The notes beneath the pieces were generated by a model. The model had not been told where the DNA came from. It made no database searches and was given only the letters and a program-made list of their open reading frames with translations. This document shows, one piece after another, positions 31,286 to 62,836 of a stretch of 64,000 nt of DNA; positions within the stretch are counted from its first letter, which is position 1, and every line of letters begins with the position of its first letter. The DNA lies in the NCBI GenBank assembly GCA_026393835.1, contig JAPKZK010000021.1, positions 62,001 to 126,000 on the forward strand, written 5' to 3'. The position numbers were made by a program, and so were the translations under genes. The stretch is from Candidatus Aminicenantota bacterium (GTDB taxonomy: Bacteria > Acidobacteriota > Aminicenantia > UBA2199).

Positions 31286-31810
31286 CCTACTTCCCGGGAC
31301 CTCGAACAATCTTACCTGGGGCAACGAAAAACTTCCCCGGCCTTAGATAAATCTTCCCAGACCATTAAAAAATCTTGTCCGGCCCAGGGAAAAACTCCCC
31401 GGACCCTCAAAAAATCTTGCCGGGGCCTGGAAAAATCTTACCAGACCCATGGAAAAACTTCCCGGAGGCTAGAAAAAACTTCCCGGACCATTAAAAAATC
31501 TTGTCAGGGCCAAGAAAAAACTTCCCAGACCATTAAAAAATCTTGTCGGGGCCTCAAAAAATCTTGTCTGGGTCCTGATAAAACTTCCCAGAGCATCAAA
31601 AAATCTTTCCAGGGCCTGGAAAAATCTTATTGGGAGCGAAGAAAATCTTCCCGAAGCTTCGAGGAGTCTTATCGGGAGCGAGGAAAATCTTATCAGGGCC
31701 ACAAAAAATCTTCCCCGAGCTTTAAGCGATGTTACCGGGAGCGAGAAAAATGTTGCCAGGAGCGCGGAAAATCTTCCCCGGGCTTTGGGGAAACTCTCCC
31801 GGCGAGGTAT
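31286..31810 (+). repeat. Tandem array 1: 25 units of exactly 21 bp
   Basis: Twenty-five successive 21-bp units with consensus near AAATCTTSCCRGGSCCTNGAA; every unit is 21 bp although they differ at several positions. Units start with a run of three to six A. The array lies inside an open frame (31112-31837, ATG start, 241 codons) that would encode a Lys/Ser/Cys heptad repeat such as KTSQTIK and KSCRGLE. The frame begins with ordinary non-repetitive sequence. I cannot tell whether it is translated; no family is recognised. The A-tracts are spaced by two helical turns, which would bend the DNA. Confidence 0.7.
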
Positions 31811-38815: not shown

Positions 38816-38859
38816 TCTCCGGCGACGGCGGGCCGTCATGAGGACCTGCCATTGGACAT

Positions 38860-39342
38860 TGACGGATTACCGCCGAACATTGATACCTTACCAACGGACA
38901 TTGACGGATTACCAACGGATATTGGTTCCTTCCCATCGGATATTGACAGATTACCAACGGATATTGGTTCCTTCCCGTCGGACATTGACAGATTACCGAC
39001 GGACATTGGTTCCTTACCATTGGACATTGACGGATTACCGTCGGACATTGGTTCCCTCCCGTCGGATATTGACAGATTACCAACGGATATTGATTCCTTC
39101 CCGTCGGATATTGACAGATTACCAACGGATATTGGTTCCTTCCCGTCGGATATTGACAGATTACCAACGGATATTGGTTCCTTACCATTGGATATTGACA
39201 GATTACCAACGGATATTGATGGATTACCGTCGGACATTCATACCTTACCAACGGATATTGATGGATTACCGTCGGACATTCATACCTTACCAACGGACAT
39301 TGATGGATTACCGCCGGATATTGGTTCCTTACCAACGGACAT
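38860..39342. repeat. Tandem array 2: 23 units of exactly 21 bp
   Basis: Twenty-three perfect-length 21-bp units (plus a partial at the left). Two sub-types alternate in part, near TGACAGATTACCAACGGATAT and TGGTTCCTTCCCGTCGGATAT, forming a 42-bp higher order. Four frames are open across it simply because the period is a multiple of three; one would give (DIDRLPT)(DIGSFPS) heptads. No start codon with a ribosome site stands out. On the right, 39367-39434 holds three further ~23-bp copies of CGACAATTAGATTT-like text. Confidence 0.7.
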
Positions 39343-39626
39343 TGAAGCGTGAGGATAATAATGATCAGCGACAATTAGATTTACCTCCTAACGACAATTA
39401 AATTTGCCATTCAACGACAACTAGAATTTTGCAATAATGAAAATTTGATTTAAGCTATTCGATCTCTCAAAGGTACTCTTATCCATGCCAAAAGCTTAGC
39501 CCCTAACATTATCAGAAAATTTGAACGAAGATATCAATGGATAATAAAGATCGAAATGACTCTTTTGATACTGGGCCGAAAGTCCCTTTTTGAAAAAAAA
39601 GGACTTTAGTCCCGGTCTTTTTCACA

Positions 39627-54121: not shown

Positions 54122-54322
54122 TGGAATGTCCTTCCTGGATTTCCGAAGCGATTCCCCAATACAGTTTGGGGTGGGGCGCTTTCTGGCTGTCCCCTAATCT
54201 CCAAAAGCGACGATGTTTTGCCGCGATGCGCGTAATGTCGTGCAAGCATCCTGCTTGCGTTTTTTTGCCTTTCAAGCGGGACGCTTGGGCTACATTTGCC
54301 GATTGCCAGAACCAACCTATAC

Positions 54323-54351
54323 TTGACAAATGACAGCCCATGCCTTAAAAT
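54323..54351 (+). promoter_or_regulatory. Near-consensus promoter placing the start at the ATG
   Basis: TTGACA (54323-54328), 17 bp, TAAAAT (54346-54351). The start codon ATG is at 54359, about 7 bases after the -10. Predicted transcription start and the ATG coincide, so the mRNA would be leaderless. No ribosome site is visible. Confidence 0.6.
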
Positions 54352-54358
54352 ATCATCC

Positions 54359-56035
54359 ATGAAGGAAAAACCAGCAGACCAACAGGAAAAAAAATATCAG
54401 AAACCGATACGCTATTTTGAACGGCGGGGCACTGTCAGCCCAGAGAAGTCCTATTATGTGGAGATAGATCGTGTCTTCAATAGCGAAAAGCAAGATATCA
54501 AAACCGTGGTGGACATGGGCCGCTACTTCTCCATTTTTGCGTCCAGGCAAAGCGGCAAAACCACCTTCCTGGAAAGACTGCGAGACAAATTACATAAAGA
54601 CCCCACCTATGTTATGATATTATTGGACTTCCAGGAATATAATGATTTGGAACTATCCCAATTTTATACACTGCTTAAAAAATCACTCTATGAACAATTG
54701 ATCAATAGACTGCAAAACGTGCAGTGCGAAAAAACCGGGGCGGTTCAAGAGTTCCTCCTGTCTCACCCACTGACGGACCATATCTCTTTCCACATGCTTT
54801 TTGAGAGATTAAACCAGATACTGCAATATAAAAAAATAATCGTTTTTATTGATGAATTCGACGGTATTCCGATGTCTGCACTATCAGGGTTTCTGACTTC
54901 TTTGCGGGGACTCTATCTGAAATACAAACATACGGACCAAAAAGCCCTCTACTCCGTTGGACTGATCGGGATTCGTAATATAACCAAACTCATCGTGGGC
55001 GGCGTCTCCCCCTTTAACATCGCGGACCACATCGAAATCCCACCCTTCTCCTTCCAAAACATCCACGACCTCTATGCCCAATACACGGACGAAACCAACC
55101 AACCCTTCACAGAAAACGCGGTAAATAAAATCTATGAAGAAACCGCGGGCCAGCCCTGGCTGGTCAACCGCCTGGGAGCTATTCTAACGGTTCAGGTGAA
55201 ACCGGAAACGGTCACGCCTATCGATGAAAAAGATGTGGAAAATGCAATCCAACTGCTGCTCAAAGAAAACAACGATCACTTCGATAACCTCTATGAAAAA
55301 GCGAAACTCTACAAGGAAACCTTCATCGAAATTGTGTTTGACCACGTGGAATACTACCCGGATGACGAGGACCAAGCGTGGCTGAAACAATATGGACTGA
55401 TCAAAGAGATCGATAATAAAGCGGTGGTGGCCAATGCTATTTATAAAGCCCGATATGTCAAAACCTTTTTCCGTGAAGCCCGCGCCACCAAAATATTCGC
55501 CCCGGAAGATTACTCCCTGCCCAACCGGCATCTGGACATGGAAAGCCTGCTGCAAAACTTCAGCCAATACATCTCCCAAATTGGCGTCAAAGCCTTCTAC
55601 GAAAAAGGAAAACCCTATGAAAAAACCGGCCAATTCCTCCTCACTGCATGGCTCTTTCAACTGGTTACCGGCAGCGAAGGTTCGTTACAATACGAGGTGA
55701 ACACCGGCTTGGGCAGAATGGATATCCTCATCTCCTATAAAGGAATTAAATACATTATCGAAACAAAAGTAAACCATCTGGACGATATCTCCATCATCCG
55801 CACCGATGGCGTCCGCCAATTGGCGCGAAAATACCTGACTACTGAAATGGTCGCGGAAGGGTTCCTGGTTATCTTCGACACCCATACCCAAACCGGCGCC
55901 TCCTGCAAACCTTCATACTTATATGAAGGTAATAAAAAAGTGACCAGCTTCACCATCGGCATCGGTCGCAATGAATTAAAAAAAAGTCCCCGGATTAAAA
56001 AAGATAAAACCTCCAGCCCACCAATGAACAGGTAA
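54359..56035 (+). CDS. AAA ATPase with C-terminal PD-(D/E)XK-like domain (paralogue C)
   Basis: A 558-residue protein. Walker A is ASRQSGKTTFL (about residues 60-70), Walker B is IIVFIDEFDGI. The nuclease-like core is GRMDILISYKGIKYIIETK near residue 470, giving D...ExK. The middle is helical with a winged-helix-like stretch. It follows the toxin-antitoxin module and appears to be read from a leaderless mRNA. Confidence 0.82.
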   Translation: MKEKPADQQEKKYQKPIRYFERRGTVSPEKSYYVEIDRVFNSEKQDIKTVVDMGRYFSIFASRQSGKTTFLERLRDKLHKDPTYVMILLDFQEYNDLELSQFYTLLKKSLYEQLINRLQNVQCEKTGAVQEFLLSHPLTDHISFHMLFERLNQILQYKKIIVFIDEFDGIPMSALSGFLTSLRGLYLKYKHTDQKALYSVGLIGIRNITKLIVGGVSPFNIADHIEIPPFSFQNIHDLYAQYTDETNQPFTENAVNKIYEETAGQPWLVNRLGAILTVQVKPETVTPIDEKDVENAIQLLLKENNDHFDNLYEKAKLYKETFIEIVFDHVEYYPDDEDQAWLKQYGLIKEIDNKAVVANAIYKARYVKTFFREARATKIFAPEDYSLPNRHLDMESLLQNFSQYISQIGVKAFYEKGKPYEKTGQFLLTAWLFQLVTGSEGSLQYEVNTGLGRMDILISYKGIKYIIETKVNHLDDISIIRTDGVRQLARKYLTTEMVAEGFLVIFDTHTQTGASCKPSYLYEGNKKVTSFTIGIGRNELKKSPRIKKDKTSSPPMNR

Positions 56036-56509: not shown

Positions 56510-57598
56510 ATGAAAGAAGAGAACGAACCTTATCGCCAGTATGTCGCCTTTATCGATAGACAAAAAGAACTGACTGATTTAGGGCTTTTTATTGATAAAC
56601 AACCTTCGGAAATTCTTTTTGTCCACGGCCCGAAATCTTCGGGAAAAACAACCCTACTCTACAAATTCCTCGAACAAATCCAAAAGGAACAAAAATTGAA
56701 TGTTAAGTTCTTGGATTTGCGAGAAACTTTTACCAATGTATATGAAGATTTTCTTAAAACTTTTTTTCTTGTTGAAACAAAAGGAGAAAAAAAAGAAACC
56801 CTGTCATCTAACATTAATGTCGGTTTTTTTAAAATCGACTCCACCGTGGAAAAGAAAATCCTGGAAAAACGGGCCGATCCTTTTAAAGTCATGAAAGCAG
56901 AATTACTGGAACTTACCCGGCAAGGGATTAAACCGGTTTTAATCATCGACGAACTCCAGGCCCTGGATAAAATTTACCTCGATAATGACAAAGAACGTCA
57001 ATTGATTACGGCGTTATTTAATTTTTTCGTGGCCATGACCAAACAGGCCCACCTGGCCCACATTATCATCGCTTCTTCGGACGGGTATTTCTTAAATACC
57101 GTGTTTACCGATTCTAAACTTAAAAAGTGTTCCAGGTTTTATAAGGTGGATTATCTCGCTAAAAAAGATGTTATGGAGTGGCTGTTGAACCTGGAAAAAT
57201 ACTCGAAAATAAAGGATTATACCCTGGCTGAAGCAGATGCGCAAAAAATATGGGATACGGTAGGCGGCAGCATGTGGGAAATCCAGTATTTATTGACGGA
57301 ACTTTTCGACAATCCGCTCGATGACGTATTAAGCCTCTATAAAAAGAAAATCAAAGGGATGATTAAATATTATATCGGGATGGATATGCGCAAAGAAAAA
57401 ATCCTGGAGGTTTTTTTGAAAAAGGAAACCGCGGATATTAAAGATTTCGCGCCCCTGGGAATAGTAACAGGTGAGTTGGAAGGACTTTTACAGGATATGG
57501 TCCGTAATAATATCCTTTATTTTGATCCTACCGAAGCAGTATATTATCCACAGGGAAAAAGCTACTACTGGGGAATTCGCCTCTATTTCGGACATTAA
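56510..57598 (+). CDS. Archaeal-type AAA ATPase without nuclease domain (paralogue D)
   Basis: A 362-residue ATPase of the ATPase_2 type common in archaea: an opening RQKELTDLGLFIDKQPSEILFVHGPKSSGKTTLL (Walker A GPKSSGKT), Walker B PVLIIDELQAL, a sensor-like IIIASSDGYFL, and a C-terminal winged helix (FLKKETADIKDFAPLGIVTGELEGLLQDMVRNNILYF). It lacks the C-terminal nuclease present in A-C. It has no visible ribosome site, consistent with the leaderless promoter. Confidence 0.83.
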   Translation: MKEENEPYRQYVAFIDRQKELTDLGLFIDKQPSEILFVHGPKSSGKTTLLYKFLEQIQKEQKLNVKFLDLRETFTNVYEDFLKTFFLVETKGEKKETLSSNINVGFFKIDSTVEKKILEKRADPFKVMKAELLELTRQGIKPVLIIDELQALDKIYLDNDKERQLITALFNFFVAMTKQAHLAHIIIASSDGYFLNTVFTDSKLKKCSRFYKVDYLAKKDVMEWLLNLEKYSKIKDYTLAEADAQKIWDTVGGSMWEIQYLLTELFDNPLDDVLSLYKKKIKGMIKYYIGMDMRKEKILEVFLKKETADIKDFAPLGIVTGELEGLLQDMVRNNILYFDPTEAVYYPQGKSYYWGIRLYFGH

Positions 57599-58314: not shown

Positions 58315-58671
58315 AATGACTTCCCGCGCAACGATAATGACCTCCCGCACAACAATAATGACTTCCCGCGCAACGGCAATGAACTCCCGCGCAACTATAA
58401 TGACTTCCCGCACAACGATAATGTCCCCCCGCGCACAGATGAAGTTACCCCGCGCACAGAACTAGTTCCCCCGCGCACGGATGCAGTTTCCCCGCGCACA
58501 AAAGTAGTTTTCCCGCGCACAAATAAAGTTACCCCGCGCACAGAAGTAGTTTCCCCGCACATAGATGAAGTTCTCCCGCGCACAGAAATAGTTTCCCCGC
58601 GCACAAAAGTAGTTTCCCCGCGCACAGATAAAGTTCTCCCGCGCACAAAAGTAGTTTCCTCACGCAACGTA
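58315..58671. repeat. Tandem array 3: 17 units of exactly 21 bp
   Basis: Seventeen successive 21-bp units; the constant core is CCCGCGCA. The first six units begin AATGAC or AATGTC, the later ones GTAGTT or AAAGTT. Degenerate heptads continue to about 58800 on the minus strand (open frame 58805-58395, with RGETTFV-type repeats). The plus frame is also open but lacks a start codon. The remaining sequence to 58984 shows no gene. Confidence 0.75.
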
Positions 58672-58984: not shown

Positions 58985-61015
58985 TTAATGTACCGAGTTT
59001 ACCAATATCCCCGCGGAAAGCATTTCTTTTATTTGAGAAATAATCTCCGCTGTTATAAAGCTTTTCTCTTCCGCTGAAATTTCACCAAATGAATCGATAA
59101 TGGACGGGAAGGCATCTCTCACTTTCTTACTCTCCCGGAATTCCACCAATATTACATAAGCAAATGAAGATAATATACTCTCTGTTACACCTTTAGCCCC
59201 TGCCTTTAAAAGTACAAAAAACGACTGGGGTTCCCGACCTATATTTTTAAGCCATTGCTCCGCTGTTTTTTTTAAATCCCAATCCCATTGGCAGGCATGA
59301 AGACGCACATCCGCATCCAATTTTAGGGATAGATCGAGTATTTCCGCGGCCCCCAGCGCCTGCCACTTTTCCGCCCCGCGCCGCTGCAGCCTTTCCTTGA
59401 TATATAACAGGTTGTGACTGGGGATACCTTCATCCATTTTTTTTATCTCCATTTCCAGGCCGGCAATTTCGGACATATATTCCCGCTGGTTCACCGGTAG
59501 GGAAAGAATAGCCAGCCGCAGGAAATCATTGAACCGGTTCTTCAAGACATGTTTCTCTTCTTGCCCCCCTTCATCCTGTTTAAAAAAATCATCCAGTTGC
59601 CGCGGTAGAAGCGTTTCGGCCAGGGCGATGCTTCGTTTGAAATAACGGTTTAAAACCATTTTCTTGATCCCGGGTAAAGAGATAGAGATATAAGGCAGAG
59701 TAAGAGTCGGCGGTTTGCCGCCGGCGGCGCAGCCCCCAACCACAGGAAGCAAAATAGAAGGAACTCTCTGTGGTTCCAATACCCTCAAATAAAAATAACC
59801 GATGCCGGGGTCGCCCCTGAAAAAACTGGAATTCCCCGCTCTATTATCAAAGCGGAGGCCCGAGGGATAATAGTTATGTTCTTTCCGGTAGGCCAGGGTT
59901 TTTACAGCGATGGCTTCCGCCAGGGTTAAGTAATAAGGGTCATTAAATATTGCGGCGCTTTGCAGGAAAAGTTCGGCATTCCCGGTTTCGCCTTCCGACA
60001 GTGTGAACATGGGAAATATTGGCTCATTTTCCCCACCCTGGCGCATGGTCCGGGCGATGGCGTTCTTTGCTTCTTGCTCATATATGGGTTTCTTTAATAA
60101 TTCGAACGCGCGTAAACGGGTGAGCCCGATGCCGGCGGCGCCGTGCGCCCAGTAATTGACATCGCCGCCCCTGGTAAAGAAATCCAGGTTCCCTTCCAGG
60201 TAAGCGGCTTCATGGGCTTTATAATCCTCATATTTGTGGAATACCTTGCGTAAATCCCGCCAGTTTTGAATCGACTCATCATAAAAACATGACTCATACA
60301 AAAACGCCTGCTGGGCCAGCCAGTAGAAGGCCTCATTGTTAAAATACCGCCCCAGTTCCAGCAGCGTGAACCCGATGCCGGCCGCGCCGTTGCCAAAGCC
60401 GCACAAACCGTTGATGTTTTTATTCGAGCGGTCCCAATAGACGCCTTTGGGACCGGGGTGAGAATTCTCAAGTAAATAACGGATAAAAGGTTCCATTTTT
60501 TCCAGCAGCCATTTTTCCCCCGAAGCGCAATGGAGATGGAGTAAACCCAGGATCGTTCCCGAAGCCCCGTTAAGCCAAAAACTCACCAGGCGGGAATCAT
60601 TTAAAAAATCGAGACAATCTTCGGCAATGGACAATGCCCGCTGGAGATACCGGTTCTCTTTGGTGGTTTCAGCCATTTTTAAAAAGGTATAGGAAACGCC
60701 CATGCGGCCATTTAAGAAGCTGTAAAAAGCCGAAGGTTCGCGGCGGCATTGGTAATCCAGCCAACGTGCGCCTTCGCCGGCGGCGTCCAGGTATTTTTCT
60801 TTTTGAGATACTTTATAGAGTTCAATGAGAAAGAGCGCCACGCCGGAGACGCCGGTAAAAATATCTTCCAGTTTATAAGCAGTAAGGCTGTTATCTTTTT
60901 CTATAGTCGTGATATTCCATGACATACCGTTCTCATCGCGGTGGGCGATGGTTAAAAGGTTATCGCCGATTCGTTCGGCTTCGGTTAATATTTCGCTCCT
61001 GATTTTATCATCCAT
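58985..61015 (-). CDS. LanC-like toroid protein lacking zinc ligands, with a C-terminal extension
   Basis: A 676-residue protein. Residues ~50-410 form seven GxxG-type toroid repeats (FTGVSG 53-58, LNGRMG 101, LNGASG 148, FGNGAAG 207, AHGAAG 290, SEGETG 340, FRGDPG 399). In lanthipeptide cyclases the zinc is held by Cys (WCHG-type) and Cys-His (CHG). Here these positions read WAHG (289-292) and LSEG (339-342), so the metal site is absent. Residues ~425-676 are a helical region with no family I recognise. The start follows AGGAG. It is divergent from the two precursor genes, so it probably acts on them, but catalysis by the usual mechanism is doubtful. Confidence 0.82.
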   Translation of the reverse strand: MDDKIRSEILTEAERIGDNLLTIAHRDENGMSWNITTIEKDNSLTAYKLEDIFTGVSGVALFLIELYKVSQKEKYLDAAGEGARWLDYQCRREPSAFYSFLNGRMGVSYTFLKMAETTKENRYLQRALSIAEDCLDFLNDSRLVSFWLNGASGTILGLLHLHCASGEKWLLEKMEPFIRYLLENSHPGPKGVYWDRSNKNINGLCGFGNGAAGIGFTLLELGRYFNNEAFYWLAQQAFLYESCFYDESIQNWRDLRKVFHKYEDYKAHEAAYLEGNLDFFTRGGDVNYWAHGAAGIGLTRLRAFELLKKPIYEQEAKNAIARTMRQGGENEPIFPMFTLSEGETGNAELFLQSAAIFNDPYYLTLAEAIAVKTLAYRKEHNYYPSGLRFDNRAGNSSFFRGDPGIGYFYLRVLEPQRVPSILLPVVGGCAAGGKPPTLTLPYISISLPGIKKMVLNRYFKRSIALAETLLPRQLDDFFKQDEGGQEEKHVLKNRFNDFLRLAILSLPVNQREYMSEIAGLEMEIKKMDEGIPSHNLLYIKERLQRRGAEKWQALGAAEILDLSLKLDADVRLHACQWDWDLKKTAEQWLKNIGREPQSFFVLLKAGAKGVTESILSSFAYVILVEFRESKKVRDAFPSIIDSFGEISAEEKSFITAEIISQIKEMLSAGILVNSVH

Positions 61016-61086: not shown

Positions 61087-61115
61087 TTGCATTGAAATTA
61101 AAAATGAGATATAAT
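61087..61115 (+). promoter_or_regulatory. Promoter of precursor gene 1
   Basis: TTGCAT (61087-61092), 17 bp, TATAAT (61110-61115), about 34 bases before the ATG, with AGGAGG upstream of it. The same spacing recurs before precursor 2. Confidence 0.65.
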
Positions 61116-61149
61116 GACGGCATCCAAAAAATCAACATAGGAGGAATAA

Positions 61150-61389
61150 ATGCCTAAAAAAACCAAACTTAACATTCAAGATCTAAAGGTACAGAGTTTT
61201 GTCACATCATTGGAAGAAGATTCCAAATCAAAGGTTAAAGGTGGTTTGCCTTACACCTGCAATACCTGTAACATGGATTGTTCTTACACTTATCTCTGGG
61301 TCTGTCCCCCCACTGAAACCTTTGATCCCAACTGCCGCACAGCTTGTATTTGTACTAACCAGCAAGCGACTTATTGCCCCTGTTTATAG
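61150..61389 (+). CDS. Lanthipeptide-like precursor peptide 1
   Basis: A 79-residue precursor. The leader (1-32) has KLNIQDLKVQSFVTS, a motif found before class I lanthipeptide cores in Bacteroidota and other phyla, and ends in Gly31-Gly32, a double-glycine cleavage site. The core (33-79) has nine Cys (37, 40, 44, 52, 62, 66, 68, 76, 78) and nine Ser/Thr (36, 39, 45, 47, 55, 57, 64, 69, 74), an equal number as required for lanthionine rings. It is the first of two related tandem genes. No LanB dehydratase or exporter is in the window. Disulfide or other thiol chemistry is an alternative. Confidence 0.85.
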   Translation: MPKKTKLNIQDLKVQSFVTSLEEDSKSKVKGGLPYTCNTCNMDCSYTYLWVCPPTETFDPNCRTACICTNQQATYCPCL

Positions 61390-61431
61390 TCGATTTGGGA
61401 GTGTTTAAAACGGATCGTTGTTAATTCAAAA

Positions 61432-61471
61432 GGCCGGTTAAATGTTTCTCAACTTTAACCGGCCATTTTTT
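61432..61471 (+). terminator. Rho-independent terminator after precursor 1
   Basis: An 11-bp stem, GGCCGGTTAAA with TTTAACCGGCC, around an 11-base loop, then ATTTTTT. The identical stem is used after precursor 2. Confidence 0.88.
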
Positions 61472-61506
61472 CCCAAATGGGTAGTCGCAATCTATGGAAA
61501 AAAAAC

Positions 61507-61535
61507 GTGTATTGAAAGTCGAAATTATATATAAT
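61507..61535 (+). promoter_or_regulatory. Promoter of precursor gene 2
   Basis: GTGTAT (61507-61512), 17 bp, TATAAT (61530-61535). The -35 is weak but aligns base for base with the promoter of precursor 1. TAGGAGG lies before the ATG. Confidence 0.6.
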
Positions 61536-61575
61536 GATGGCATCTAAAATCAAAAAATATAGATAGGAGGAAAAA

Positions 61576-61818
61576 ATGCCCAAAAAAATCAAACTTAACA
61601 TTCAGGATCTAAAGGTACAAAGTTTTGTCACATCGATGGACGATGATTCCAAGGCAAAGGCTAAAGGTGGCGCGAATATACCCCTAACTTGCAATACCTG
61701 TGATCTGTGTTCTTGGACTTATGTTTGGTACTGTCCCCCCTCTGATACCCTTGTGGAGTGGTGTCACTCAGCTTGTCATTGTACTGTCCTGGCAGCGACT
61801 TATTGCCCTTGCGTATAG
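61576..61818 (+). CDS. Lanthipeptide-like precursor peptide 2
   Basis: An 80-residue paralogue. The leader (1-32) is nearly the same as in peptide 1 (KLNIQDLKVQSFVTSM, ending in Gly-Gly). The core differs at many sites but keeps nine Cys (39, 42, 45, 53, 63, 67, 69, 77, 79) and nine Ser/Thr (38, 41, 46, 48, 56, 58, 65, 70, 75) in register with peptide 1, apart from one single-residue gap between the second and third Cys. Selection on ring positions rather than on the rest is implied. The two could be a two-component pair or separate products of one enzyme set. Confidence 0.85.
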   Translation: MPKKIKLNIQDLKVQSFVTSMDDDSKAKAKGGANIPLTCNTCDLCSWTYVWYCPPSDTLVEWCHSACHCTVLAATYCPCV

Positions 61819-61860
61819 TCGCTTGAGAATGTTTAGAAAGAATTACTGTTAATTTCAAAA

Positions 61861-61899
61861 GGCCGGTTAAATGTTTCACAAGTTTAACCGGCCATTTTT
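61861..61899 (+). terminator. Rho-independent terminator after precursor 2
   Basis: Same stem as at 61432 (GGCCGGTTAAA / TTTAACCGGCC) with a slightly different loop and ATTTTT. It lies directly before the nuclease-like gene at 61913. Confidence 0.88.
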
Positions 61900-61912
61900 C
61901 CTCCTTAACGAC

Positions 61913-62836
61913 ATGAAAATACGACTCTTAACTTACAATCTCGCCATGCTCCCTGGCCCATTTGGAACAGCAAAAGAAAAACGGGCGGAAGGATTTGTCA
62001 AAAAAATTATGAAAAAGCCCGTCTACGATATCATCTGCCTCCAGGAAATTTTCGCTGAAGATATCCGCGCTTATCTAACCCGCGGCCTTCAAGCGAATTA
62101 CCCTTATATTGTCGATAAATCCGGCAGCCTTAATCCTTTAAACCAGGACAGCGGCCTGTTTTTTGCGTCTAAATTCCCTATTTTGCGCCATACTTTCCGG
62201 GAATTCCGCGACAAGAGCTTGCTTACGCCGGATGTAATTGCCGATAAAGGAATATCGGCCGCCTACTTCCAATTCGGCCCCGCTGCCGGCGCCGCCGGCG
62301 CCACAATCCTGCGCGTCTTCCTGACGCACCTGCAATCCAGGGAATCCGAATTTAAAACAAGAGAAAAACAACTGTCCCAAATCCGCGGGTTTATCGCCCG
62401 TTCATCAACCCCTGGAAAAAAGAGGAAGGACCCCGCGAAAATCCATACCATTCTCGTGGGAGATTTTAATGTCGCCGGCGATAACGGCGAAGAATATAAA
62501 AAAATGTTGGACCTGCTGCATTATCCCAGGGATCTCTTCCGTGAGAAAAACCCCAAAAAGAAAGGTTTTTCCTGGAATTCGCAAGAGAATCTTTTTCTAA
62601 AAAGTGTCTATCAAGACGATACCGATATGCAGCGGCTGGATTATATATTTACCTATGACCATATACCCTATGCACACAAGAAACAGGGACGCGAAAGCGT
62701 AAAACTGGGAAAAGTCGTCTGTCACTCCTGCGGCATATTCAGACCGAAACTGTCGGGCAACCCGGGCGAGCTCCCGGGTAAGTGCGATCTCTCCGACCAT
62801 TACGGGGTAGAAGCCGTCATCGAGATCCCAGGCTAA
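61913..62836 (+). CDS. Endonuclease/exonuclease/phosphatase family hydrolase
   Basis: A 307-residue protein of the DNase I/sphingomyelinase-like fold: ICLQEIF (catalytic Glu), THLQS, LVGDFNVAGDN, LDYIF and CDLSDHYGVEA, all active-site motifs. No signal peptide is seen. The neutral sphingomyelinase-like subgroup fits best, but the substrate is unknown. The ATG at 61913 is preferred; the upstream frame overlaps the terminator. Confidence 0.87.
   Translation: MKIRLLTYNLAMLPGPFGTAKEKRAEGFVKKIMKKPVYDIICLQEIFAEDIRAYLTRGLQANYPYIVDKSGSLNPLNQDSGLFFASKFPILRHTFREFRDKSLLTPDVIADKGISAAYFQFGPAAGAAGATILRVFLTHLQSRESEFKTREKQLSQIRGFIARSSTPGKKRKDPAKIHTILVGDFNVAGDNGEEYKKMLDLLHYPRDLFREKNPKKKGFSWNSQENLFLKSVYQDDTDMQRLDYIFTYDHIPYAHKKQGRESVKLGKVVCHSCGIFRPKLSGNPGELPGKCDLSDHYGVEAVIEIPG

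Follow-up and report, generated by a model that had tools for sequence, protein, structure and literature searches.

The window, i.e. the complete stretch of 64,000 nucleotides that was analysed, is part of contig C179 (62001-126000) in a draft genome of Candidatus Aminicenantes (G000; 8.19 Mb, completeness 91.7%, contamination 6.6%). A sequence-only reading of the region 61150-61818 had singled out two tandem precursor ORFs, each with a core of exactly nine Cys and nine Ser/Thr. Both ORFs and both counts were confirmed. A gene for a LanC-like protein, located outside of those coordinates, precedes them on the opposite strand. The features of the locus are as follows.

58985-61015, minus strand: LanC-like protein of 676 aa, divergent from P1 with 134 bp between the starts; PF05147 match of 139.6 bits
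58988-59329, minus strand: predicted winged-helix C-terminal part of the LanC-like protein, residues about 563-676 (from a model of residues 431-676 and Foldseek)
61110-61115 and 61530-61535, plus strand: TATAAT, candidate -10 elements of P1 and P2, respectively; repeat family D3, 79% identical between the units
61139-61144 and 61565-61570, plus strand: AGGAGG, ribosome-binding sites of P1 and P2 assigned by sequence
61150-61389, plus strand: ORF of precursor P1, 79 aa; the leader comprises residues 1-32 and ends with KGG
61246-61386, plus strand: P1 core LPYTCNTCNMDCSYTYLWVCPPTETFDPNCRTACICTNQQATYCPCL, 47 aa after Gly-Gly, nine Cys and nine Ser/Thr
61428-61468, plus strand: terminator-like hairpin AAAAGGCCGGTTAAA...TTTAACCGGCCATTTTT 3' of P1; inverted repeat I2, direct repeat D4
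61576-61818, plus strand: ORF of precursor P2, 80 aa; the leader comprises residues 1-32 and ends with KGG
61672-61815, plus strand: P2 core ANIPLTCNTCDLCSWTYVWYCPPSDTLVEWCHSACHCTVLAATYCPCV, 48 aa after Gly-Gly, nine Cys and nine Ser/Thr
61857-61897, plus strand: matching hairpin 3' of P2; inverted repeat I3, direct repeat D4, 96% identical

Each precursor unit has its own TATAAT, AGGAGG and GGCCGGTTAAA hairpin, and the spacing from unit to unit is 420-432 bp. This indicated that an entire transcription unit had been duplicated in tandem. A promoter scan gave no match better than chance at the two units, and a -10 function of TATAAT is putative. A terminator scan yielded nothing above chance; nevertheless, both hairpins are visible as repeats.

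Several other genes of the window were inspected. The gene at 61871-62836 (plus strand), right after P2, encodes an endonuclease/exonuclease/phosphatase-family protein (a sphingomyelinase-type match was below cut-off, 46 vs 248 bits) and shows no sign of belonging to the lanthipeptide locus. Upstream of the locus are two tandem AAA-type ATPases, possibly defence-like genes. The first (54296-56035) has a weak C-terminal PD-(D/E)XK nuclease match, the second (56510-57598) a weak PADLOC match to PDC-S27. Tandem repeats with a 21-bp unit, equal to seven codons, form arrays at 31290-31786, 38854-39344 and 58315-58666, and one array lies immediately downstream of the LanC-like gene. ORFs with similar 7-residue repeats occur on further contigs, both of this genome and of relatives (e.g. 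L018 16923-17276, L053 1343-1603, L056 886-1137).

Comparison of the two cores bore out the claim that Cys and Ser/Thr stand at matching positions. All nine Cys columns are identical, and each of the nine Ser/Thr columns has Ser or Thr in both cores; in two of these, Thr is replaced by Ser. The other residues vary, as had been observed before; only 10/28 are identical (Fisher P = 0.0007), a contrast that weakens to P = 0.025 when these residues are scored by chemical class. The alignment has the single-residue internal gap described earlier, but one gap does not account for the whole since the P2 core starts with two extra residues. Both leaders end with Gly-Gly (KGG) and share the motif LKVQSFVTS, which turned out to be part of a longer common stretch, KLNIQDLKVQSFVTS.

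A search for a RiPP precursor family, as proposed with the first reading, identified NCBIfam NF038180 (pinensin family lanthipeptide, leader_pinensin). P1 and P2 scored 43.5 and 44.9 bits (E about 1e-11) at a cut-off of 24 bits; the model spans the leader only, thus the cores have no family match. The genome contains six NF038180 leader matches on five contigs, one of which is a fragment (contig C140). Ten and seven matches were found in two genomes of the same genus (G002 and G003), and six in G006 of the same family. In all 18 pinensin-leader precursors examined Ser/Thr equalled or exceeded Cys (18/18). With length removed, Ser/Thr tracked Cys at a partial r of 0.65 compared to 0.35 for the best of 267 control residue sets (n = 18).

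Some of these sister precursors are unusual in their own right. In the region G000:C190:41075-41158 an orphan pinensin-leader precursor (L014 9898-10164, minus strand) has a 59-residue core with 14 Cys and 15 Ser/Thr; similarly dense cores exist in G002 on contigs C484 (15 Cys) and C245 (14 Cys). At the other extreme are very short pinensin-leader precursors with a single Cys and a conserved ...PIFC or ...IRIFC end (L006, L007, L030, L044 and L045 in G000, G002 and G003). An 86-aa Cys-rich precursor-like ORF with another leader type (MKSKKITKKLSLNKLTISHLGHVQAG...; L088 4850-5107, plus strand) was seen in G001 near a LanB/long-LanC operon.

For the core, matches among 142 genomes of the class were limited to G000, G002, G003, G006 and G013. 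Those of G002 and G003, the same genus, were leader-type, G006 contained homologous cores, and G013 of the same family had one weak match (2e-4). Across 396 sampled genomes of the phylum, only the own genome was retrieved, at 1e-7. Viral origin or spread was dismissed, as a scan of viral contigs with the precursor alignment retrieved no relative. In G006 (Ca. Aminicenantes isolate Ww63) contig C499 encodes the core IPYSCNSCQLDCSVTYIWYCPPTATDEPFCYTACVCG with seven Cys and seven Ser/Thr, and contig C556 two tandem cores, YKYTCLTCDHYDCSGSVYVVCS with four Cys and five Ser/Thr and LPWTCVSCDAYCSGSRYMVCDVVFD with four Cys and four Ser/Thr. When four homologous cores from two genera were compared with P1, Cys was kept at 24/24 positions and the Ser/Thr class at 24/25, often with Ser and Thr swapped. 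The other residues were kept at 39/74 positions even by chemical class (P = 3e-5 vs Ser/Thr; P1 is common to all pairs, so the comparisons are not fully independent). A drift of Ser/Thr with retention of Cys, which had been named beforehand as evidence against a lanthipeptide, was not what the homologues displayed.

P1 and P2 both have the order tCtCCttCttCtCCttCC when hydroxyl residues are written as t and thiol residues as C. The orders of the homologues end at tCtCCttCttCtCC and tCtCCttC, both balanced, and the third homologue adds one terminal Ser. In all five cores the third Cys is preceded by only two Ser/Thr. Because of these two hydroxyls ahead of the third Cys, ordinary rings are limited to a maximum of eight in P1 and P2 and to six or three in the homologues. 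Hence, the earlier argument that equal counts are what full cross-linking requires does not extend to nine ordinary rings; a ninth would need one reversed ring.

Could P1 and P2 be disulfide-rich secreted peptides with a borrowed leader instead of lanthipeptides? The paired, conserved Cys residues and the lack of an adjacent LanB would agree with such peptides. However, the hydroxyl positions are conserved with swaps and their counts match those of Cys in short and long homologues, as is predicted by thioether pairing and not by disulfides. The leader family, the LanB sets of the genome and the adjacent LanC-family gene also speak against it. Therefore, we regard disulfide-only peptides as improbable.

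The surroundings of P1 and P2 are devoid of a LanB, and there is none near any of the six pinensin-leader matches of the genome. LanB domains are present in G000 at two places only. Contig C71 carries a LanB of 749 aa, SpaB_C (331 aa), LanC (411 aa), a C39-type peptidase/export transporter (729 aa) and HlyD (459 aa). Contig C53 carries a LanB of 998 aa, a SpaB_C-type elimination protein (353 aa) and a LanC of 682 aa. The recommended search for lanB thus failed near the precursors and succeeded elsewhere in the genome, where a C39 exporter was found as well. With LanB on C71 and C53 only, maturation of P1 and P2 would have to occur in trans. A LanB could also be absent from the draft or misbinned, given the completeness of 91.7% and contamination of 6.6%.

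Both sets have a split LanB, the type reported for pinensins, which are class I lanthipeptides of family I 17 (PMC7268733). The likeness covers the leader motif, which is above cut-off in P1 and P2, the LanB with a separate elimination domain, and the LanC-like neighbour, which is related to LanM cyclase domains as reported for LanCs paired with pinensin precursors (PMC7268733). In contrast to pinensins the cores of P1 and P2 are very Cys-rich, the precursors are unlinked to LanB, the adjacent LanC lacks catalytic residues and the host belongs to Ca. Aminicenantes, not to Bacteroidota. A full-text search of the open-access literature retrieved no publication that deals with lanthipeptides or RiPPs of Aminicenantes. 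The lanthipeptide interpretation proposed at the outset is supported by the leader match, the retention of Ser/Thr in homologues and the split LanB sets in the genome. Taken together, the sequences support an assignment of P1 and P2 as class I lanthipeptide precursors of the pinensin-leader family.

A class II origin was considered and set aside: G000 has no match to the LanM domain DUF4135, although the same search was blank in every control genome, so that absence is not proven. The scattering of many precursors over the genome and their putative maturation in trans by few enzymes is reminiscent of the prochlorosins, where ProcM matures scattered precursors (PMC11251773). That system, however, uses a class II LanM with a three-Cys zinc site and Nif11-type leaders, as opposed to class I LanB sets and pinensin-type leaders here.

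The LanC-like protein has PF05147 as its only Pfam match above cut-off and is a stand-alone protein without kinase or lyase domains. Its best NCBIfam match is LanM. With the LanB-linked LanC of contig C53 it shares 45% identity across 683 aa. This full-length identity ruled out a glycoside hydrolase-type relative, a kinship which has been suggested for LanB-less Bacteroidales LanCs (PMC10352776). We then compared the catalytic residues in NisC numbering; the positions were set by alignment and residue roles were taken from PMC10604976. All five catalytic or zinc positions are replaced: D141 by F146, H212 by N209, C284 by A290, C330 by S340 and H331 by E341. Thus, neither the zinc ligands Cys284, Cys330 and His331 nor the acid/base residues Asp141 and His212 are retained. 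The replacements are concentrated at the active site. Across 21 zinc-type homologues 65 columns are near-invariant, including four of the five catalytic positions. In the window protein these four are all changed compared to 5/61 elsewhere (56/61 kept; P = 2e-4). This loss of the active site in the adjacent LanC-like protein, a gene which the sequence-only reading had passed over, is the most unusual feature of the locus.

A second zinc-less LanC was found in G006 on contig C556. This protein of 650 aa has T, N, S, S and E at the same five positions and no LanB beside it; its gene adjoins the tandem precursor pair of that contig, whose cores are of the same family as those of P1 and P2. It has diverged more generally, with 13/61 of the other near-invariant columns changed. 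The gene order differs; LanC is divergent from the precursors in the window and convergent in G006. No LanC is near the homologous precursor on contig C499. A 172-aa ORF directly upstream of the LanC gene on C556 (L049 2522-3037, plus strand) has no counterpart beside the window gene. The two zinc-less LanCs, both from draft metagenome assemblies and the only known members, form one clade (support 100/99 in a 9-row tree and 100/100 in a 27-row tree), and the LanB-linked LanC relatives in these genomes all keep the site. A single loss that predates the split of the two genera is, therefore, the simplest account. As judged from sequence and gene neighbourhood, the association of a zinc-less LanC with this precursor family is kept across two genera.

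The missing catalytic residues, the absence of a nearby LanB and the precursor fragment on contig C140 might suggest a decaying relic, i.e. an inactivated LanC with leftover, functionless precursors. Yet the frames of 676 and 650 aa are intact in two genera, the loss is common to both members as a clade, and the two duplicated precursors are intact with constrained cores. Since frames and fold are preserved and the changes in the window copy are concentrated on the active site, we consider decay to be very unlikely.

An AlphaFold2 model of the window LanC had a pLDDT of 91.6 and a pTM of 0.91. In Foldseek searches the predicted N-terminal 420 residues matched LanCL2, LanCL1, LicM2, CuvL, MadC and NisC. 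Residues 431-676 were modelled alone with a pLDDT of 92.5; a helical domain (residues about 447-560) precedes the winged helix. By sequence the C-terminal domain had no match in Pfam or the PDB. By predicted fold it matched TglHI (E 5.9e-5) and, more weakly, the dehydratase MibB, PqqD and the leader-bound RRE of TbiB1 (E 0.02-0.8). With the small RREs the TM-scores by target were 0.68-0.74 at E values of 0.1-0.8. From the fold we read the C-terminal part as a helical domain followed by a putative RRE-like leader-binding domain.

Long LanCs, extended at the C-terminus by about 230 residues, are a more widespread type. They were encountered in genomes of KSB1, Chloroflexi, Planctomycetota and Bacteroidota, commonly as part of LanT-HlyD-LanB-SpaB_C-LanC operons and several times with pinensin-leader precursors. 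Within this type a loss of zinc ligands is not unique to the Aminicenantes clade. The LanCs of Chitinophaga, Pedobacter and Sphingobacterium (L141-L165, L171, L172, L176, L190) have Ala for Cys284 and Ser for His331 (H-A-C-S or H-A-V-S), and an orphan LanC from a Bacteroidetes MAG (L135) has T-Q-S-C-S; the Chitinophaga and Pedobacter LanCs and L135 lost parts of the site independently. Like the window LanC, the Chitinophaga-type proteins are without C284 and H331; unlike it, they have retained D141 and H212 (in those rows that were checked), reside in complete LanT-LanB-SpaB_C-LanC operons (in those read) and occupy a separate tree branch. The clade described here is set apart by the loss of all five positions and by its orphan location next to precursors.

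What might a LanC without zinc ligands do? In class III lanthipeptide synthetases the LanKC domains in general have no zinc ligands (PMC7268733). In ThurKC, Ser726, Phe770 and Asp771 take their places, and rings no longer form when either Phe770 or Asp771 is mutated (PMC10604976). A LanC fold thus can close rings without these ligands. The window protein resembles ThurKC in that the zinc ligands and both acid/base residues are replaced and an acidic residue is at the His331 position: Glu341, corresponding to Asp771 in ThurKC, is also Glu in the second member. It differs from class III LanKC as a stand-alone protein fused to a putative RRE-like domain, without kinase or lyase domains, and it arose separately within the class I pinensin LanC family. 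This leaves two functions for the protein, either a metal-independent cyclase or a leader-binding scaffold for a zinc LanC.

As a pseudoenzyme it would be an RRE-bearing scaffold or chaperone which passes precursors to LanB and a zinc LanC acting in trans. The loss of all five catalytic positions, the retention of the putative RRE-like C-terminal domain and of the remaining fold, and the presence of both LanB and a complete zinc LanC elsewhere in the genome argue for a scaffold; the class III cyclase domains that catalyse without the same ligands (PMC10604976) and the acidic residue kept at the His331 position in both members argue against it. We consider this a serious possibility, somewhat short of probable.

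More tentative is a proposal by analogy, in which the protein would be active as a metal-independent cyclase, would have converged on class III LanKC and would form lanthionine or labionin-like links. Such links would suit the odd order tCtCC. Each exchange has a parallel in ThurKC (H331 to E in D771, C284 to A/S in S726, C330 to S in F770, D141 to F/T in S608, H212 to N in D667), and the zinc-less form was maintained across the split of two genera. However, the likeness to ThurKC is one of position only and Ser is present where ThurKC needed Phe. Its more specific version is equally doubtful; here the LanC would be a dedicated, metal-independent protein which stands alone, has a leader-binding domain of its own and processes the dense 9-Cys/9-hydroxyl family together with a LanB encoded elsewhere, in convergence with class III. 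Between the two functions the scaffold has a slight edge.

Since the zinc-less LanC has stayed beside this precursor family, the protein is most likely dedicated to these precursors. The locus is probably best explained by pinensin-leader class I precursors, a LanB acting in trans and a dedicated zinc-less LanC as cyclase or scaffold. In the pathway we propose, the leader would be bound by RRE-type domains of maturation proteins, and the conserved Ser/Thr residues would be dehydrated by the split LanB pair of contig C53 (998 aa and the 353-aa SpaB_C-type protein) or by the pair of C71. Addition of the Cys thiols would then generate ordinary (methyl)lanthionine rings, eight at most, while one Cys would stay free or take part in a reversed ring. 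A C39-type exporter, as in the C71 operon, may cut after Gly-Gly and export the product. The long LanC of the window may have been born by duplication of a LanB-linked zinc-type LanC. The duplicate would have retained the fold and the putative leader-binding C-terminal domain while zinc ligands and both acid/base residues were replaced, and it would now act as a metal-independent cyclase or assist a zinc LanC as a recruiter or chaperone without catalytic activity.

Activity of the zinc-less LanC would show that lanthionine formation without metal has evolved repeatedly. An inactive protein would instead be a scaffold specific to these precursors, a function which we did not find described for the LanC family in the open-access literature. 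The zinc-type paralog with 45% identity in the same genome is a comparison partner for the zinc-less LanC. Either way, the locus offers a defined pair of substrates and a natural swap of an active site, in a genome whose scattered class I precursors would be matured in trans.
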